Source: a virus
Virus record (IMG/VR): IMGVR_UViG_3300010399_000006
Coordinates: 1-64,000 of that record
DNA: 64,000 nt
Reading direction: 5' to 3' (one strand)
A program made the translations under genes and the position numbers. The notes under the pieces were generated by a model. That model was not told the origin of the DNA. It made no database searches and saw only the letters and a list, made by a program, of their open reading frames with translations. Below are positions 1 to 55,738 of the stretch, one piece after another (within the stretch, counting starts at the first letter, position 1; the number at the start of each line of letters is the position of its first letter).

Positions 1-14
1 ACTGCGTGATCATT

Positions 15-108
15 CAGGGGTTAGCTCAATTGGTAGAGCGTCGGCGTGCTAGGCTTCGGCCTAGCCACATGCCGGAGGTTGGTGGTTCGACTCCATCACC
101 CCTGACCA
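15..108 (+). tRNA. tRNA-like RNA lacking an anticodon loop
   Basis: A perfect 7-bp acceptor stem (15-21 with 98-104), discriminator A and encoded CCA (106-108), a D arm (GCTC/GAGC, 24-27 with 36-39) and a T arm (GGTGG/CCATC with loop TTCGACT) are all present. Where the anticodon arm should be, bases 41-48 pair with 68-75 and 49-54 pair with 59-64, capped by TTCG (55-58) on a C-G pair, with a 3-nt bulge CCA at 65-67. No 7-nt anticodon loop can be drawn, so it cannot decode in the usual way. It may be a tRNA mimic or decoy, or a tRNA with an unrecognised small intron. The tRNA-like fold is certain; its role is unknown. Confidence 0.8.
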
Positions 109-146
109 AATCACCGTTCAGCATCTCGTGGAACGAGTCTGTTGGA

Positions 147-551
147 CTGCCGGAGTGCCCATACCTGCGGCGTTGGGTTTTTGACTTCGGAGCGTTCTCA
201 ATCCGCGTCCACCGTTGGCAGTCATCCGACGATGAGCGCGCGTTCCACGACCATCCGTGGTGGTTCTTAACTCTGGTTCTGTGGGGCTCGTACGTCGATT
301 CCTCGCCCTCCGGTCGCGACCTATTACGAATCGGCTCCGTTCGTTGCCGCTCAGCAAACCACCGCCATACCGTTGAAGTCCTAAAACCCGGTACGTGGAC
401 GATTCTCATCACCGGCCGGGCTTCTCGCCGTTGGGGCTTCTGGGTCGATGACAAGCTACTACGTCGCGACAAGTACTTTGCTGAACACGGCCACCATCCG
501 TGCACTTCAGGATCTCCGGTACGAATGCGGCCTGATGGTAGTCGCATATAG
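147..551 (+). CDS. Cupin-like small phage protein, start uncertain
   Basis: The reading frame has clear protein character: a hydrophobic VFDFGAFSIRVHRW segment, then a histidine-rich AFHDHPWWFLTLVLWGSY motif and a later HRHTVEV followed by a GTWTILITG strand. This HxHPW...G pattern is typical of small cupin (double-stranded beta-helix) proteins in phages, where the histidines may bind a metal. There is no ATG, GTG or TTG between the 3' end of the tRNA-like RNA and the conserved part. The frame runs upstream through the RNA gene, which is surely not coding. A CTG at 147 is the only canonical-like start, so the start, or a start-codon mutation, is unresolved. The helicase follows 11 nt downstream. 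Substrate unknown. Confidence 0.5.
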   Translation: MPECPYLRRWVFDFGAFSIRVHRWQSSDDERAFHDHPWWFLTLVLWGSYVDSSPSGRDLLRIGSVRCRSANHRHTVEVLKPGTWTILITGRASRRWGFWVDDKLLRRDKYFAEHGHHPCTSGSPVRMRPDGSRI

Positions 552-562
552 TTGGGACAATC

Positions 563-2239
563 GTGACCCGGCCGTTCCCCCCACCATCAGCATTCGGTGC
601 TCCATCGCGATATACCGACTGGAGACCGGAACAACTGAAAGCACTCTTTCAGGTCTCCGACAGCGAGAAGATCTACCGCCAAGTCCTAGCCCCATGTGGG
701 TCTGGGAAAACGCTCCTCGCACAGATGCTCATTGCCATGCACGGCGGTCGCGGTCTGATCCTCACTGAACTCCTCGGGTTGATGGATCAGCACATCGAGG
801 ACGCCCGTGGGAGTGGATACAAGATTGCCGATCTGCGTGGAGCTGGTAACTATCCGTGTCCGGTACTCCAGCGCGGCGGTAGATACGCCCACCTAGCCGA
901 CTCCCGCCGTGGTACTAATTGCGACGCCGGTCCGTGCAGATCCGGTCTACCGTGCCACCTGCGTACTAACGGGTGTCCGTACTACGATGCCGAAAAGCGA
1001 GCCCGAGAAGCGGACATCGTAGTCAGTAACTACGCAAAGTGGTTAGTGACCGACGAAGATAGCGAATCGTTGGGTAAGTTCGATTGGTTAATACTTGACG
1101 AAGTCCATCAAGTGCCCCGTTCAGTGGCTAATGCAATGCGGATCGACATTAATCTGGAACAAATCGGAGAGTTACTTAGCATTCGCACTCCTGATCCCCG
1201 ACGATCACCGATCCGTGACTGGTACGAGTGGAGCCAACTGGTCGTTGGTAGGTCTGTCGATCGCCACAACCAACTAAAGGAAGAACTGAAACTAGCCCGC
1301 GAAACTGGCACGGTAGATCGATACGACATGGACAGACTGGCTGGTCTCCAACACGTCGTACGTACCGCCGACAAGTTGCAGAAACTCCGTTCCGGCGAGT
1401 GGATCGTTACTCAGCCTGCCAGTCGATCGATCAGATTCGAGGTTCTATGGCCACGTGAGTACTGCGATAAGTTACTCTTCAGAGGTATCCCCAATGTGGT
1501 AGGTCTCAGTGCCACCGCTCCGAGGAAGACGTTCAACTACCTCGGACTCGACGACGACGAATTCGACTTCTTTGAGTTACCGTCGTCGTTCCCCATCGCC
1601 AATCGCCCGGTGTATGTAATTCCGTTCGGCTATGTGCAGTGGAATATGACTGCCGACTCGATACGGAAGTGGATCAACGGTATTGATACGCTGTTCGGCA
1701 AGCACGGCGACGGACGTAAGGTTTTGGTAGATACCATCAGCTATAAGTGGCAGAATACCCTACTGGAGAACTCACGCTACTCCCACAGGATGATTGCCAA
1801 CAGAGACTCCAAAGACACCGCTAGAGCTGTGGAGTACTTCCGCAGTCCGGAGTCGCCGGATGACTCTATTCTGGTTGGACCGTCGTTCAGCGGTGGGTAC
1901 AACTTTCCTGGTCGAGCGTGTGAGCTGGCAATTGCGTGCAAGCTGCACTTTCCTGATATGCGCGATCCGGTGACCAAAGCGCGGTGCGATTCTGATCCGA
2001 CGTTTAAACCGTACGAGATGATGCAGCGGTTGCAGCAGTTCGCCGGTCGGTTAGTGCGGAGCCGTCGAGATCGGGGGATGACAGTGATCGCCGATGGGCA
2101 TGCCATGAGGTTTTTCGACCCAGCGGAGGGCAATCGGAGGTACGCCGCAAAGTACTTTTTGGATGCTGTACAGGTGGTGAGGAGTGGGTTGTTGCCGAAG
2201 CCATTGCCGAAGTTGACTGATGAGGAGATCGGTGAATGA
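563..2239 (+). CDS. DinG/XPD-like superfamily 2 DNA helicase
   Basis: A 558-residue ATP-dependent helicase of the XPD/DinG type, expected to unwind DNA 5'-3' during replication or repair. Walker A is APCGSGKT at about residues 43-50 and the DEVH box lies near residue 180 (WLILDEVHQV). Between them a cysteine group (NC-x4-C-x5-C and GCPYYD, residues about 120-140) sits where XPD and DinG hold a 4Fe-4S cluster, followed by the family-typical ADIVVSNY. C-terminal motifs include GLSATAP and QQFAGRLVRSRRDRG, the helicase motif VI arginine finger. Start is GTG. Its stop overlaps the next ATG by 4 nt. The Fe-S cluster is inferred from the cysteine placement. Confidence 0.88.
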   Translation: MTRPFPPPSAFGAPSRYTDWRPEQLKALFQVSDSEKIYRQVLAPCGSGKTLLAQMLIAMHGGRGLILTELLGLMDQHIEDARGSGYKIADLRGAGNYPCPVLQRGGRYAHLADSRRGTNCDAGPCRSGLPCHLRTNGCPYYDAEKRAREADIVVSNYAKWLVTDEDSESLGKFDWLILDEVHQVPRSVANAMRIDINLEQIGELLSIRTPDPRRSPIRDWYEWSQLVVGRSVDRHNQLKEELKLARETGTVDRYDMDRLAGLQHVVRTADKLQKLRSGEWIVTQPASRSIRFEVLWPREYCDKLLFRGIPNVVGLSATAPRKTFNYLGLDDDEFDFFELPSSFPIANRPVYVIPFGYVQWNMTADSIRKWINGIDTLFGKHGDGRKVLVDTISYKWQNTLLENSRYSHRMIANRDSKDTARAVEYFRSPESPDDSILVGPSFSGGYNFPGRACELAIACKLHFPDMRDPVTKARCDSDPTFKPYEMMQRLQQFAGRLVRSRRDRGMTVIADGHAMRFFDPAEGNRRYAAKYFLDAVQVVRSGLLPKPLPKLTDEEIGE

Positions 2240-2526
2240 TCTACTCCGCATGGGCTTTAGTGTCTGTTCTGTTCGTCGCTCTGGTCACCACAAAACTGGA
2301 AATGGGTAGTCGTGCTGAGTGGAAACGGCGATACGAAGCGGAGGCTGAGCGTCATAGGCATACACACTCACTCTGGCTTAAGACCGTTCATGAGAACGCT
2401 GCCAACGGTTATCACCACGCTAAGCTCGCCCGCCGCATCCATCGTCAACGGGAGGAGATCAAGAAACTGAAGTTAGCCCTTCGTGGGACGGCTACCGTGC
2501 CGACAATAATGAGGTCGGGTGAATAG
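2236..2526 (+). CDS. Small single-pass membrane protein with basic coiled-coil tail
   Basis: A 96-residue protein whose first about 20 residues (YSAWALVSVLFVALVTTKL) form one hydrophobic segment, followed by a charged, helical His/Arg/Glu-rich domain (repeated RR, RHRH and REEIKK stretches) that probably forms a coiled coil in the cytoplasm. ATG overlaps the helicase stop (ATGA), so it is translationally coupled. No known family is recognised. It could anchor a replication protein at the membrane, but this is only position-based inference. Confidence 0.7.
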   Translation: MIYSAWALVSVLFVALVTTKLEMGSRAEWKRRYEAEAERHRHTHSLWLKTVHENAANGYHHAKLARRIHRQREEIKKLKLALRGTATVPTIMRSGE

Positions 2527-2886
2527 ATGGATCGGTTGGGACGTGCTGACGGTACCAGTGCAAAGGAACGACGTGCCGTACGTATGTCCAAGCGCGGGCT
2601 GGTTACCTTCGGCAAAGGCCGTCCGCGTGGACTGCATCAGCGCGAAATCCTTGCCTACCTCGTGGAGGAGCGCGGAGATACGTGCGGGATCTGCAACCGG
2701 GCGCTTGGCGAGTTGGCCCTGTGCAACATTGACCACATCATCCCGCTCGGCAAGGGCGGTACCAACGCGTGGTCCAATCTCCAACCAGCGCACATCGTGT
2801 GCAACAACGCCAAGGGAGACACCATCGGATTCACCATAACTGACAGCACTGGAGGTGACCTACAGATCAGCGAAGAAAGTTCTTGA
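2527..2886 (+). CDS. HNH endonuclease
   Basis: A 119-residue HNH nuclease. The fold is marked by CGIC (first zinc knuckle), then the catalytic-type stretch NIDHIIPLGKGGTN, NLQPAHIVCN and a final N-x2-K. The cysteines (CxxC ... C) should bind structural zinc, and the first His of DHI would be catalytic. It begins right after the previous stop and lies between the helicase and the putative ssDNA-binding gene. It may be a free-standing homing endonuclease or a resolving nuclease used in DNA metabolism; the sequence does not decide. Confidence 0.85.
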   Translation: MDRLGRADGTSAKERRAVRMSKRGLVTFGKGRPRGLHQREILAYLVEERGDTCGICNRALGELALCNIDHIIPLGKGGTNAWSNLQPAHIVCNNAKGDTIGFTITDSTGGDLQISEESS

Positions 2887-2911
2887 CACACCGTCAGACC
2901 AGCAGTAACGT
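2883..2911 (+). promoter_or_regulatory. Candidate sigma70-type promoter
   Basis: TTGACA at 2883-2888, a 17-bp spacer, then TAACGT at 2906-2911, about 85 nt before the gene at 2997. The -35 box is perfect but the -10 box is weak (three of six matches). It overlaps the HNH stop codon. A GTACGTACC sequence follows near 2942. Confidence 0.45.
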
Positions 2912-2996
2912 ACCCACTCACCTAGCGGTACTTACCAAATCAGTACGTACCACTACACATCCAGCAACCAGTAACTAGAAGGAAAGGACAAACTGT

Positions 2997-3935
2997 ATGC
3001 CGAGTGCAGCAAAAGCAGATCTACTCCGTGGACCCAAGCGGCTCGATGATGTCGATTTCATCTTCCACAACCCCCGATTCGAGGAACGAGAGAAAACCAA
3101 CGGCGGACTCACCGCCGCGTTCTTCATCGCCGATCTCGAACTCAACGATGGCCACCAGGAGGAGACGGCGTGGGAGATCGCCCCGGTGGATTGGCTCAAC
3201 GATCGCGACAGTGGCGAACCAAAGGCTCAGGTCACCGAGGATGGCAAGTTCATCGACGTGGACGAGCAGAACCCGTATCAGATCAGCGGCGCCAGCGAGG
3301 CCGGGGCGCTGTTTCAGTCGTTGGAGGACAACGGCATCAGCAGCTCCGTGATGGCGCGTTTGTGTGCCGAACCGGAAGTGCTGGAGGGCGTCAAGGTCCA
3401 CGGTATCCAGCAGGCCACCGGTAGAACGTACGTGTCGAAGAAGGGTGCACGGAAGGGCCAGACCATCGAGGTGACCGTGCTGGTGGCCGAGTCGGTCATC
3501 GAAGACCCCAACACCGACACGAAGAAGAAAACGGCTGCTAAGGCCGGTGCCAAGCCCACTGCTGGTGCCAAGCCCGTGGGTCGTCCGCCGCGCAAGCCCG
3601 AGCCGGAACCCGAACCGGAAGAGGAATCCACCGAGGAAGAAGGTATCTCGGAGTTGGATCAGACAGGTATCGATACAGTCCAGAAGATCTTTGCGTCGGT
3701 CGTTAGCAAGACTCCACGGGAGTACGTTAGGACGTTCTCTCCTCGTCAGTACGACGGCGGTGTACAGATCGCGCAGATGGGGGCTGGTGCGATGATGGCC
3801 TACAAGGGCAAGCAGCCGCCCAAATCGAATCTAGTTAAGATCCTGACGGACCCGAATTGGGCTGAGCAATTCGCCGAAGTTGGCGGGTGGACGTTCGACC
3901 GGAAGAAGGGGATCTACTTCCCCGTGACCGATTAG
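2997..3935 (+). CDS. Putative single-stranded DNA-binding or recombination accessory protein
   Basis: A 312-residue protein preceded by a good ribosome site (AAGGAAAGGA). The N-terminal about 170 residues are beta-rich and of mixed charge (DVDFIFHNPRFEEREK ... ISGASEAGALFQSLEDNGI). A Lys/Ala/Pro and Glu/Pro-rich linker follows (about 175-215), then a compact C-terminal domain with aromatic residues (GWTFDRKKGIYFPVTD). This layout, between the helicase and the recombination nucleases and with its own likely promoter, resembles phage ssDNA-binding proteins, but no diagnostic motif is visible. That it is a gene is secure; the function is an inference from position and domain style. Confidence 0.6.
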   Translation: MPSAAKADLLRGPKRLDDVDFIFHNPRFEEREKTNGGLTAAFFIADLELNDGHQEETAWEIAPVDWLNDRDSGEPKAQVTEDGKFIDVDEQNPYQISGASEAGALFQSLEDNGISSSVMARLCAEPEVLEGVKVHGIQQATGRTYVSKKGARKGQTIEVTVLVAESVIEDPNTDTKKKTAAKAGAKPTAGAKPVGRPPRKPEPEPEPEEESTEEEGISELDQTGIDTVQKIFASVVSKTPREYVRTFSPRQYDGGVQIAQMGAGAMMAYKGKQPPKSNLVKILTDPNWAEQFAEVGGWTFDRKKGIYFPVTD

Positions 3936-4055
3936 TATTTCTAAGTTGCAAGCGGCGGGCTGGCGTCGTCACATCTCAGCTAGTGGAAGGGGTGACAATC
4001 TGAGTAACCACCCTACCAGCACCGTTGGATTTGAGTTCGAGTGGAATCCGCCAGA

Positions 4056-4754
4056 ATGCTAATCCGTAGACGCCCACTCGAACTCAAATCTCAACTCTAC
4101 TCTCGGGAGTACAACGTAGATCGTTCCATTGGCTGCCATCTTATGGATGTAGTGAATTATGTCGATAAAGTTGGCGGTCACTCCAAGCAGCGTACCGACG
4201 TATCACAACGAATGCTCGAATCAATGGCTACCGTAGGATTCACATGGGAGCACGTCGCCGCGCGAACCGAACAGATAGAACTAGCTCTCAGTCTAGAAGC
4301 AATGCGAATGGAGTACGTACACCGGCCGGAACTGATCTTCCCTGGAGAGCTGTTCTGGTGCCAACAGTGTGACGACGTACTCCAAGGTGGACTGATCGCC
4401 AAGGAGCACTGCAAGAGCCGAAAACACAACGGGATCTTCTTCACTCCTGACGGCATCAACACCGCACGGCAACGAGTAGCGGAGTTCAAGTTTACGTGGG
4501 TGAGTAGCAGTAGAACTGGCGACGATCACATGGACGGGATCTGGAAATGGCCCGTTCAGAACATGGCGTACTGCTACGGTACTGGGTATCTGATGGGTGA
4601 GTTGAAAGCGGTGTTCGTCGTGGGGGACTATAAACAGAGTACGTACGAACCGTTCCCCGAGGCGTATGAGTTTGATCTGGATTACAGCCAGAGAGAGCTA
4701 GATGAGAACTTTAGTTTGATCGTGAACAATGCTAGAGCACTGGAGTGGATCTGA
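4056..4754 (+). CDS. PD-(D/E)XK nuclease, RecB/Cas4-like
   Basis: About 232 residues, the likely recombination exonuclease of the phage. The core motif is VAEFKFTW (E-x-K), followed by a helix with WPVQNMAYCYGTGY that fits the conserved Gln and Tyr of RecB/Cas4-type nucleases, then strands (KAVFVVGDYK). A CQQC pair and a later HCKSRKH sit before the motif and may bind zinc. Start choice is hard: GTG at 4041 is possible and neither start has a good ribosome site. A 20-codon CTG-started frame at 4000-4062, with a strong GGAAGGGGTGA site, ends across the ATG at 4056. Coupling or a frameshift that removed the true N-terminus is possible. The NADAR gene follows directly. Confidence 0.75.
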   Translation: MLIRRRPLELKSQLYSREYNVDRSIGCHLMDVVNYVDKVGGHSKQRTDVSQRMLESMATVGFTWEHVAARTEQIELALSLEAMRMEYVHRPELIFPGELFWCQQCDDVLQGGLIAKEHCKSRKHNGIFFTPDGINTARQRVAEFKFTWVSSSRTGDDHMDGIWKWPVQNMAYCYGTGYLMGELKAVFVVGDYKQSTYEPFPEAYEFDLDYSQRELDENFSLIVNNARALEWI

Positions 4755-5192
4755 ATGACAACTCGAATAGATAGATTCATCGGTAAGTACCGCTGGTTGT
4801 CCAACTTCGCTCCGGTGAACGTGTTGCTGGATGGTGTTCTATATCCCACTGTCGAACACGCATATCAGGCGGCTAAGACGGAGGACACCAACGAAAGACT
4901 ATCAATCTACGACTGCGATAGTCCTGGTGGAGCCAAGAGGCTCGGCAGGAAAGTGACACTCCGATCAGATTGGGAGTCCGTCAAGGTCGATGTCATGAAC
5001 GATCTCCTGCAGCAGAAGTTCCGCCAACCTCAGTACCGTCTTCAGCTTCTCCAAACTGGAGACGCCACGATCGTCGAGGGCAACAATTGGGGCGACTCCT
5101 ATTGGGGAGTCTGTAGAGGAGAGGGTCAGAACATGCTCGGCAAGATCATCATGAGAGTGAGAGAAGAACTGTTGGCAGAGGAGAATCAATGA
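4755..5192 (+). CDS. NADAR (YbiA-like) domain protein
   Basis: A 145-residue single-domain NADAR protein. Seen in order: FIGKYRWLSNF, YPTVEHAYQAAK, SDWESVKVDVM and GQNMLGKIIMRVREEL, which match the family's conserved F...LSNF, EHxYQxxK, W..V..DVM and N-LGxxLM blocks. NADAR proteins act as N-glycosidases on ribosylated substrates, and some remove ADP-ribose from guanine in DNA, antagonising DarT-type toxins. In a phage it could protect DNA from such a host defence or take part in a nucleotide or cofactor pathway. It begins 0 nt after the nuclease stop and overlaps the following ATPase gene by 4 nt. Confidence 0.85.
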   Translation: MTTRIDRFIGKYRWLSNFAPVNVLLDGVLYPTVEHAYQAAKTEDTNERLSIYDCDSPGGAKRLGRKVTLRSDWESVKVDVMNDLLQQKFRQPQYRLQLLQTGDATIVEGNNWGDSYWGVCRGEGQNMLGKIIMRVREELLAEENQ

Positions 5193-6079
5193 CTCCAGTG
5201 AGTAGATCTACACCGGCAAGCAAATCGGTACGTACTGACAACGACTACATCGATCCACCAGAACCCCAACGCAAAACGATCTGTCTGATCTTCTCCCTAA
5301 CGGGCGAGGGGAAATCGACTATGGGTCTGAAGTACGTACCTGGGCCGGTCAGCTACCACGATGTAGACAATCGTGGATTCAACGCCTGCAAAAAAGCCAG
5401 ATCCGAGGGTAAGGTAGTCCGTTACCTGGATCTGGACTACCCACGACACATCGCCGACATGGACGAAAAAGAGGCAATGGCCGCCGCCAAGTCGGTGATC
5501 GATCGTCATTGGAAAAATCTGGAGTGGTCCGTCCGTGAATCAGAGAAAGGTAACGTTCGTACGATCACTTGGGACACCGCCAGCGAATTAGCCGATATCG
5601 TGAACATCATGTTCACTGGCAGGCCGGAACGCCGTGGCGACGACTACGGTGCCAGCTCCAACATGGTCAAGGTGGAGCTGATGAAGATGATCAAGACCGT
5701 CCGCAACGAAGGCAACGCCAATCTGGTGATGCTCGCCCACGCCAAAGAAGTGTGGGAGAAGGCCGGTACCACCAGCAGCGGCAAAGAGAAACGAGCCGCC
5801 ACTGGTAAGTACACATTCAGAGGACCGGCTGAACTGGCGTCCAGCGCTGATTGGGCCGGTCACCTGCGACTGGCGGCGACAAGTGTCAAGGCGCGGGCGA
5901 GTGAGAAGAGCAAGTTGCACGAACTGGAGATCACCAAGGCGGGGATTATTCTGTCAACCCTCGGGGACGTGTATACCGAACAGCAGTGGGGAGAGCCGGA
6001 CGACGGTGGGTATGGACCGTTCGCGTTTGCCTGCTCGATGCAGCACATCGATAGCACTCCAGAGGACTGGATGGAATGA
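5189..6079 (+). CDS. Sak4-like RecA-fold ATPase (single-strand annealing/recombinase type)
   Basis: A 296-residue P-loop ATPase. Walker A is SLTGEGKST (residues 36-44), preceded by a hydrophobic strand (ICLIF). A Walker B-like strand VRTITWDT lies near 125 and a NLVMLAHAKEVWE strand with a polar sensor near 180, the usual order in phage Sak4/RecA-core ATPases. The first 30 residues are polar and probably disordered. It sits between a RecB/Cas4-like nuclease with NADAR and an ERCC4 nuclease, with 4-nt overlaps on both sides, which supports a recombination and replication-restart cassette. DNA annealing or strand exchange is inferred from the family. Confidence 0.8.
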   Translation: MTPVSRSTPASKSVRTDNDYIDPPEPQRKTICLIFSLTGEGKSTMGLKYVPGPVSYHDVDNRGFNACKKARSEGKVVRYLDLDYPRHIADMDEKEAMAAAKSVIDRHWKNLEWSVRESEKGNVRTITWDTASELADIVNIMFTGRPERRGDDYGASSNMVKVELMKMIKTVRNEGNANLVMLAHAKEVWEKAGTTSSGKEKRAATGKYTFRGPAELASSADWAGHLRLAATSVKARASEKSKLHELEITKAGIILSTLGDVYTEQQWGEPDDGGYGPFAFACSMQHIDSTPEDWME

Positions 6080-7038
6080 CTGTATTGATTGACCCTTGCG
6101 GAGGTTCGGTCGATCTACACCAACTCCTCCCTCGTGGTGGTTCCGTACTTAGTGATCTCCTTCTGGTCGGTTCCAACAACCGCGCTGACGCCGCGTGGTT
6201 CGGCAACGGTCCCGATCCGTCGCGACCGCCGTACATCGGTGTCGAGAGGAAGAGGCTAGGCGATGCCCTCCAATGTATGCAGGACGGTCGATTGGTAGAA
6301 CAGCTTCGAGGCATGGTCACTACCTACAACCACGCTTGGGTGCTGATCGAAGAGGAGATCAGATCCAATCCCACCAATGGCCTGCTGGAGAAACTACTCC
6401 ACGACAGATCCAAGAAAACCGGCAAGCGCGGCGGTGGTAGTGGCACCAGGCATTTCAACTGCAACTCCAAGTGCCGGTGGGTTCCGGCATCGGTAGGTAC
6501 AAAGCGTAAACTTATGTGGCGCGATTTCCGTCACTGGTTATCGTCACTGATTCACGTAGCTACCGAGGAGAGTGGAGTCATCGTACGTCACGAGTTCACC
6601 CGGAACCCTACCGAGACTGCCGACTTCCTGTGGACCGAGTACACATGGTGGCAGAAGGATTGGAAGGACCACGACAGCCTGAAGGTGTTCAATACTTCAG
6701 GACCACTGCCCAATATGAAGCCCTGCGTGTGCGATCATCCCAAGGCCAGCCACGAGGGCAGACGCAGTAAGTGTGCTCGGTGTTCGTGTGACCGGTACGA
6801 GCAGGCGAGGACGGTATCTACCCTGATTGCTCCACCTGATGTAGCTAGATATGCCAAGGAAACTGATGGAGTTGGCTGGGACCGGGCGCTGGCTCTGGCG
6901 GATAAGTTCGCGTCGGTGCGAGAGCTGTTCAACGCCGGTGCGGATGATCTGGTGATCAAGGGCGTGATAGGTAGGAAGTTGGCGGAGGGGATGGAGAGGC
7001 AGTGGACTAGGGAGCGGACGATACGGAGGCCGAAATGA
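6076..7038 (+). CDS. ERCC4/XPF-type nuclease with helix-hairpin-helix tail
   Basis: A 320-residue nuclease. The active-site signature GVERKRLGD (residues about 55-63) is the ERKxxxD motif of the XPF/MUS81 family. A C-terminal region (about 265-315) with GWDRALALADKFASVRELFNA and VIKGVIGRKLAEG looks like tandem helix-hairpin-helix DNA binding. Between them a cysteine/histidine cluster (CVCDHPKASHEGRR-x2-CARCSC, about 215-237) forms a probable zinc finger. Such enzymes cut branched or flapped DNA, fitting the recombination cassette. It overlaps both neighbours by 4 nt. Confidence 0.85.
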   Translation: MTVLIDPCGGSVDLHQLLPRGGSVLSDLLLVGSNNRADAAWFGNGPDPSRPPYIGVERKRLGDALQCMQDGRLVEQLRGMVTTYNHAWVLIEEEIRSNPTNGLLEKLLHDRSKKTGKRGGGSGTRHFNCNSKCRWVPASVGTKRKLMWRDFRHWLSSLIHVATEESGVIVRHEFTRNPTETADFLWTEYTWWQKDWKDHDSLKVFNTSGPLPNMKPCVCDHPKASHEGRRSKCARCSCDRYEQARTVSTLIAPPDVARYAKETDGVGWDRALALADKFASVRELFNAGADDLVIKGVIGRKLAEGMERQWTRERTIRRPK

Positions 7039-7532
7039 TTGTAGCTGGCACTGGACACCGCCCTGACAAACTCGGCGGATATAGACAGTCTGTATTAGAT
7101 CGGCTGATTGACCTTGCGTTGGATTCTCTACGCTCCATCAAACCAAAACTGGTAATCACTGGTATGGCTCTCGGTTGGGATACGGCGTTAGCTCTGGCAT
7201 CGATTGAGCTGGGAGTGCCGTTCCATGCGTACGTACCGTTCAAGGGTCAGGAATTGGCGTGGCCGAAGGATAGCCAGATCAAGTATAGGGATCTACTGAA
7301 GTCGTCCGACAAGGTAGTGGTCTGTTCGCCGGGAGACTACTCGAATGAGAAGATGCAAATCAGAAACGAGCAGATGGTCAACGATTCTGATCTGCTGATG
7401 GCTCTTTGGAATGGCTCACCCGGTGGGACTAGAAACTGCCTAGAGTACGCCGGTAGTGTCAAACGTAAAATCGTGAACGTATGGCCGTACTGGATCAAAC
7501 ACTACCGCAAGTGCCCAAACCAGCACATCTAG
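7035..7532 (+). CDS. SLOG-fold (YpsA/DprA-like) Rossmann protein
   Basis: 165 residues with N-terminal IVAGTGHRPDK, central LVITGMALGWDTALA and C-terminal DLLMALWNGSPGGTRN, matching the G-HR, GxxxGxD and W-G-xGGT nucleotide-binding loops of the SLOG superfamily (DUF1273/YpsA group). These proteins bind nucleotide ligands; some SLOG proteins are linked to signalling by NAD-derived or modified nucleotides in defence, while others act in DNA uptake or processing. Here it is coupled to the ERCC4 nuclease and lies 1.9 kb from the NADAR gene. Ligand unknown. Confidence 0.8.
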   Translation: MIVAGTGHRPDKLGGYRQSVLDRLIDLALDSLRSIKPKLVITGMALGWDTALALASIELGVPFHAYVPFKGQELAWPKDSQIKYRDLLKSSDKVVVCSPGDYSNEKMQIRNEQMVNDSDLLMALWNGSPGGTRNCLEYAGSVKRKIVNVWPYWIKHYRKCPNQHI

Positions 7533-7536
7533 TACG

Positions 7537-8094
7537 ATGGTCGGTCCCAATCAGCGTTACGGTCTGCTGACAACCATCCAGATAGACCACAAGTCTGGTG
7601 GCCGCAACTGGTGGCGCTGCCGTTGCGACTGCGGTAACTACACCACTATCCGCCAGGACTCTCTCCACAAGAACCGTAACCACTCATGTGGGTGTACCAG
7701 GAAGACCAGAAACCAGAAACACGGTGACTACCAGTCGAGTACGTACCAGTCGTGGCGAGCGATGCGGCGGAGATGTAATGATAAGAAGTTCGTATCGTAT
7801 CCGTTCTACGGTGCGTTGGGGGTAAGGGTTTGCGCCGAGTGGGACGATTCGGAGACCGGCTATCAGCAATTCCTAGCTGATATGGGGGAGCGGCCCGCTG
7901 GGATGACCCTGGATCGGAAAGACACCACCGGTGACTACACTCCAGGTAACTGTCGTTGGGCGACGAGGAAAGTTCAGGACTCTAATAAGCGTATGGCGGT
8001 GGAGACCAGAGAAGCAGCACAAGAGTTGGACTATTGGGAAGAACAAGAGCGGGAGTACCTGAAGGGGTTGGAGAACTCGGCTGATGAGGGTTAG
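7537..8094 (+). CDS. HNH-like endonuclease / DNA-binding phage protein
   Basis: A 185-residue member of a widespread phage family. N-terminal RCRCDCGN and SCGC form a zinc-binding half. The second half shows YQSWRAMRRRC, YPFYGALGVRVCAEW, FLADMGERPAGMTLDRKD, then GDYTPGNCRWAT, a recurring pattern in phage HNH-like proteins with an NxCxW replacement of the HNH core. The C-terminus is acidic and helical. It starts 4 nt after the SLOG gene and overlaps the polymerase start by 11 nt. Whether it cuts DNA or only binds it is unknown. Confidence 0.75.
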   Translation: MVGPNQRYGLLTTIQIDHKSGGRNWWRCRCDCGNYTTIRQDSLHKNRNHSCGCTRKTRNQKHGDYQSSTYQSWRAMRRRCNDKKFVSYPFYGALGVRVCAEWDDSETGYQQFLADMGERPAGMTLDRKDTTGDYTPGNCRWATRKVQDSNKRMAVETREAAQELDYWEEQEREYLKGLENSADEG

Positions 8095-55661: not shown

Positions 55662-55738
55662 GTCTCCAGAGCATGATTGGACTATGCATCAGACTTCTAA
55701 TCTGAGGGTTCCGAGTTCGAATCTCGGTGGGGACACCA
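55662..55738 (+). tRNA. tRNA-Arg (anticodon UCU)
   Basis: A complete 77-nt cloverleaf: acceptor GTCTCCA/TGGGGAC, D arm GCAT/ATGC, anticodon stem TCAGA/TCTGA with loop CTTCTAA (UCU), T arm CCGAG-TTCGAAT-CTCGG, discriminator A and encoded CCA. It reads AGA codons, which are frequent in this phage's genes. A 7-bp hairpin (GTCCCGA/TCGGGAC, 55626-55652) lies just upstream. Confidence 0.95.

Follow-up and report, generated by a model that had tools for sequence, protein, structure and literature searches.

A tRNA-like gene with a hairpin in place of the anticodon loop

The analysed window comprises the first 64,000 nucleotides of the 72,850-bp IMG/VR virus record IMGVR_UViG_3300010399_000006. Close to its start lies a tRNA-like gene with a type-I body (Table 1). 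The covariance search proposed in the first-pass annotation confirmed the gene as a tRNA by matching positions 15–105 to the Rfam tRNA family RF00005 (53.3 bits, E 1.2e-8). The score clears the 29-bit gathering cut-off of the family and is near that of the ordinary tRNA-Arg(UCU) encoded by the same virus at 55662–55738 (56.2 bits for 55662–55735). The RNA folds as a cloverleaf at -44.4 kcal/mol (z -3.83), and none of 200 shuffled sequences folded as well. The acceptor, D and T arms and the CCA are thus intact, as had been annotated, and the body contains U8 and A9.

The 7-nt anticodon loop with a decoding-competent U33, a hallmark of RF00005, is absent. Instead, the anticodon stem UCGGC/GCCGG closes on a 25-nt region folded into a hairpin, the helix of which is capped by UUCG. 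Taken by itself, the 25-nt loop reaches -13.2 kcal/mol, a value equalled by 26 of 20,000 mononucleotide shuffles. The arm was initially described as a 14-bp helix of 8 and 6 bp separated by a CCA bulge. This register is one of two with nearly equal energies, and the alternative of 7 and 7 bp separated by a CAC bulge is better by about 0.8 kcal/mol. In the alternative register, positions 48–65 make up a perfect 18-nt hairpin. This hairpin occurs once in the window, even with up to three mismatches allowed, and an exact copy of the 33-nt arm sequence was not found in viral_contigs.

Before any processing, the RNA lacks an anticodon loop and therefore cannot read codons, which upholds the original reading of the gene as written. 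ARAGORN also places a tRNA at 15–108 and labels it tRNA-Pyl(cta), which would make it an amber-decoding tRNA. The CUA is part of the helix, in the 5' strand of the hairpin, rather than of a loop. Furthermore, TAG, TGA and TAA are all used as gene ends in this virus, and TAG terminates seven of the 19 well-supported genes. Therefore, we rejected the label as a mis-call, and amber decoding is extremely improbable.

Table 1 Coordinates of the tRNA-like gene, its structural elements and the overlapping reading frame
Feature	Positions	Strand	Basis
Reading frame continuing through the tRNA; starts at a GTG overlapping the upstream stop (GTGA)	6–551	+	translation
tRNA-like gene, 94 nt, type-I body, CCA encoded	15–108	+	RF00005 53.3 bits, ARAGORN, fold z -3.83
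Acceptor stem 5' strand CAGGGGU, seven Watson-Crick pairs with 98–104	15–21	+	sequence, fold
D arm GCUC / GAGC, loop AAUUGGUA	24–39	+	sequence, Rfam alignment
Extended anticodon arm UCGGC-GUGCUAGGCUUCGGCCUAGCCACAU-GCCGG, 13–14 bp, 3-nt bulge on the 3' side	41–75	+	folds at -20.7 kcal/mol
Perfect 18-nt hairpin GCUAGGC-UUCG-GCCUAGC filling the anticodon loop; exact removal leaves GU-CAC-AU	48–65	+	sequence, folds
CAC bulge (CCA, 65–67, in the other register); anticodon 34–36 (Val) if 48–65 is removed	66–68	+	sequence, suboptimal folds
T arm GGUGG-UUCGACU-CCAUC	81–97	+	sequence, fold
Acceptor stem 3' strand ACCCCUG, discriminator A73, CCA (106–108)	98–108	+	sequence

The tRNA-like gene starts 5 nt past the upstream stop codon. 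Co-directional genes come next, one ending at 551 and the next encoding a DNA helicase (563–2239). The conserved-looking part of the reading frame that runs through the tRNA begins downstream of it, and the tRNA-like residues of its N-terminus seem spurious; the translation contains no usual start codon soon after the tRNA. The ends of the record are an exact 123-bp repeat (1–123 and 72728–72850), and 123 is a common k-mer of MEGAHIT, employed in JGI assemblies with that program. The repeat is probably a k-mer overlap left by the assembly of a circular genome and not a biological terminal repeat. Since it includes the tRNA, the apparent second copy at 72742–72832 is almost certainly one gene read twice.

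The virus encodes a PolA-type polymerase, a large terminase and an SU10-like portal. A NADAR-domain protein (Pfam PF08719, E 5.8e-27), from a family linked to ADP-ribose removal, is encoded at 4755–5192 of the window and is a possible counter-defence gene. No near relative of the virus was found among 50,697 phage records. Neither a blastn search of window positions 1–8000 against INPHARED nor a tblastn search with the terminase identified a relative, and the helicase and polymerase had distant matches only, mostly with 24–35% identity. Searches of IMG/VR with three protein probes (helicase, portal and DNA polymerase) yielded no confirmed relative.

Possible excision of the hairpin as a short intron

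The insert may be a short intron, the 18-nt hairpin being positioned between U33 and the anticodon of a tRNA-Val gene. Its excision and the joining of the exons would produce tRNA-Val(CAC), or the GAC isoacceptor if a neighbouring cut were used. The exact removal of 48–65 leaves a tRNA-Val-like loop with U33 and A37 in place, but these two residues also fit a simple extension of the stem. A classifier of tRNA bodies that is blind to the anticodon gives Val as its top choice (71% top-1 accuracy in cross-validation), whereas the nearest BLAST match to the spliced form is a phage tRNA-Trp. The isotype of the body is therefore not firm.

We evaluated introns by an exon test, in which one contiguous stretch is removed from anywhere in the arm and the remainder is inspected for a 5-bp stem, a pyrimidine at position 32, U33 and a purine at position 37. 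The test spans the whole arm and not the loop alone, because the stem of the anticodon arm is where certain genuine inserts are located. Expected values were derived from shuffled inserts, and archaeal genome contigs served as the positive control: 29 of 32 archaeal intron-containing tRNAs were compatible with the test (4.3 expected). The strict test has no solution for the window tRNA, in which a purine (G) would occupy position 32. The failure is at this position alone, and four solutions are obtained by hand from the sequence if the requirement for a pyrimidine is ignored. A G at position 32 is present in about 1% of normal viral tRNAs (6/626). Thus, the strict test weakens the case for the unusual intron suggested in the first-pass annotation, but the removal of the exact hairpin does leave U33-CAC-A37.

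The window RNA shares with archaeal introns of the bulge-helix-bulge (BHB) type an anticodon-arm helix interrupted by a 3-nt bulge. However, it has one bulge followed by a closed UUCG hairpin, and its exons are not canonical at position 37/38. Six folds lie within 1.5 kcal/mol, and none of them shows the BHB pattern, a 4-bp helix between two 3-nt bulges. Group I or II introns have no Rfam match at E<=1 in positions 1–400, and the 18-nt insert compares with ribozyme cores of hundreds of nucleotides. Searches of the virus record for two RNA ligase families, RtcB and T4 Rnl1-type, gave no match, though a ligase of the host could serve. Among 50 records of the viral class with long anticodon loops described below, and counted from that class alone, RtcB is encoded in two and T4 Rnl1-type ligase in six, with both in one, so that seven of the 50 carry a ligase; several of the seven are very large phages.

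Inserts in phage tRNAs are already known as the "enigmatic introns" of Lak megaphages (Devoto et al. 2019, PMC6784885), which share with the window RNA the presence of extra sequence in a phage tRNA. The Lak introns were judged against intron-less homologues, whereas no homologue of the window RNA was found and its excision leaves a loop that is not fully canonical. The virus also differs from Lak megaphages in its size of 73 kb and in the standard stop usage of the genes examined. Short inserts whose removal restores canonical arms are present in some clostridial and phage tRNAs, which also argues for an intron. We retain the intron as the main rival explanation, since the removal of 48–65 leaves U33-CAC-A37 and the classifier favours Val, but consider it somewhat unlikely.

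The scan also identified other tRNA inserts. An insert of 39–43 nt is located nearly always after position 28 in tRNA genes with Lys, Asp, Asn, Ile, Arg and Leu anticodons, and its removal produces perfect anticodon arms. It was found in bacterial genome contigs (L275, L298, L307, L310, L326, L335, L341, L344, L362, L365, L366 and L374) and viral contigs (L168, L181, L186, L205 and L221). The 17 distinct inserts all begin with an A-rich stretch, which precedes a hairpin that covaries and has a UUG-type tip; (A)CAGCAA follows the hairpin. The Rfam matches of L326, L366, L187, L248 and L309 are to tRNA and tmRNA families alone. These inserts likely represent an undescribed family of short tRNA introns in Clostridia and phages, separate from the window RNA, which lacks both the motif (UUG-type tip hairpin, then ACAGCAA) and the position after nucleotide 28. 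A second recurrent insert, UACUUUUCGCU..GGCA..AAAGUUCCUAU, is present in tRNA-like genes of carriers including Chryseobacterium and Winogradskyella (L276, L286, L303, L305, L312, L313, L322, L327, L330, L332, L355, L357, L372 and L386). Other tRNAs of bacterial genomes and viruses combine a UUAUA-type anticodon loop (UAU) with a long variable arm containing a CAGAU(A/U)AG-like sequence (L316, L328, L354, L368, L045, L055, L171, L197, L201, L238, L254 and L261), a type-II shape that is odd for tRNA-Ile.

Rebuilt anticodon arms in other viral tRNAs

A scanner requiring acceptor, D, T and 5-bp anticodon stems was run on pattern-matched viral loci, a sample enriched by design, so that its counts give no frequency. 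It identified 60 distinct type-I tRNAs in which the anticodon loop has at least 13 nt, beside 631 normal ones. In an earlier run, the same scanner found 56 on real loci and 0–1 in reversed or Markov sequence. The stems of the 60 long-loop tRNAs are paired as well as those of the 631 normal ones, a comparison that is a sanity check rather than a measurement, as the selection thresholds were slightly different. The quality of the stems indicates that the long-loop tRNAs are not decaying wholesale.

Twelve of the 60 long-loop tRNAs were compatible with the exon test (10.2 expected). Among those with short inserts (loops up to 45 nt), the 7 of 42 that were compatible correspond to the chance level of 7.1, and most of these arms therefore hide no canonical loop. 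Two homologous pairs retain the inserted helix through compensatory changes. In L112 and L117, the helix differs at three pairs, each altered on both sides, between constant flanks (AAA...UACCUAA), and neither arm is reducible to a canonical loop. The helix of the Thr(UGU)-like pair L223 and L258, inserted between positions 36 and 37, also covaries; since this pair is intron-compatible, we do not count it as evidence for non-decoding tRNAs. The long-loop class is surely mixed and holds several different things.

Several extended-arm tRNAs lie among normal ones at 5590–7150 of viral contig L263 (identical to L265), and the extended ones end in NCCT, not NCCA. L006, L190 and L060 have homologous extended arms with the common sequence CCCUCA(U/A)GGUGAAGG(A/G)CC..AAA(C/U)GC.GGGA, and no canonical loop is recoverable from L006 and L190. 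A further candidate for a tRNA with an insert, H41 (CP053388), was rejected, as it consists of two adjacent normal tRNAs. In the searchable literature, we found no report of phage tRNAs with the anticodon arm rebuilt without a recoverable loop.

The window gene may instead be a formerly decoding tRNA lately broken by the insertion of a small palindrome, the body being intact for want of time. Consistent with this, the window contains a single copy of the insert, which is an exact and perfect palindrome, and no relative shows that it has been kept. However, similar rebuilt arms with stems as good as normal recur in many viruses, inserts are kept by compensatory change in some viral pairs, and all seven acceptor pairs of the window RNA are Watson-Crick. 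We regard a recent disruption as quite unlikely.

Possible action of the RNA through its tRNA body

We tentatively favour the reading that the gene produces a processed, non-decoding tRNA-like RNA that works through its tRNA body, most likely as a decoy; we rank this as possible, though short of probable. The intact body and CCA, a hairpin beyond chance expectation, the recurrence of the viral class and the compensation in L112/L117 are consistent with such a role, as are the outcome of the exon test for the window RNA and for viral short inserts and the lack of RtcB and T4-type ligase matches in the record. The retention of U33 and A37 upon removal of the hairpin, as for an intron, counts against it. 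RNase P, 3'-processing enzymes and EF-Tu read the acceptor/T half of a tRNA, and an RNA of this shape can therefore be produced and may be stable in the cell. Because RNase P and the 3'-end enzymes recognise this half and the CCA, those of the host would presumably cut the RNA from the co-directional transcript. It would then accumulate with the hairpin still in place and act through its body, not by decoding. The 13–14-bp anticodon arm should be unfit for the ribosomal A site and gives anticodon nucleases no loop to attack, so that the hairpin would take the RNA out of reach of both. We speculate that the RNA is an expendable decoy which, having no anticodon loop to cut, would occupy enzymes gripping the tRNA elbow, acceptor or CCA, for example a tRNA-cutting defence nuclease. 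One enzyme with such a grip is Cas12a3, which contacts a tRNA at its T-arm, acceptor stem and CCA tail, the last of which it cleaves (PMC12851939); the part of that report considered here describes no viral decoy. We found nothing linking this virus to a Cas12a3 system.

The tRNA body might alternatively be a scaffold that shields the hairpin, which would be the active part, such as a small regulatory RNA or a protein-binding hairpin. The hairpin runs on directly from the anticodon stem, a design shared by engineered tRNA scaffolds. In opposition to this, the helix is nearly fully paired and capped by UUCG, leaving the 3-nt bulge alone exposed, and the window contains no second copy of the hairpin. 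A scaffold is thus a very unlikely explanation.

The body-acting RNA proposed here resembles other phage type-I tRNAs in its body, CCA, processing signals and place between phage genes, but has a hairpin where they have a 7-nt anticodon loop. It shares a proposed link to tRNA-cutting defences with the anti-defence tRNAs of phages (van den Berg 2023, PMC10264068; PMC11555353). However, those tRNAs still decode and replace the cut ones, which the window RNA cannot do as written. It is conceivable, if doubtful, that phages widely encode non-decoding tRNA-shaped RNAs, with structured elements in the anticodon loop and the body under selection, that these RNAs counter tRNA-directed defences of the host as decoys or scaffolds, and that the window RNA is a minimal member.

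The function of phage tRNAs is still debated between codon compensation and the evasion of tRNA-cutting defences. A non-decoding tRNA body separates the two ideas: since it cannot decode, any benefit that it provides must arise by a route other than codon supply. If the insert is spliced instead, bacteria and their phages would have a route of short-intron tRNA splicing distinct from those of group I and II introns. In both cases, such genes are concealed by ordinary annotation, as exemplified by the tRNA-Pyl label of the window RNA.
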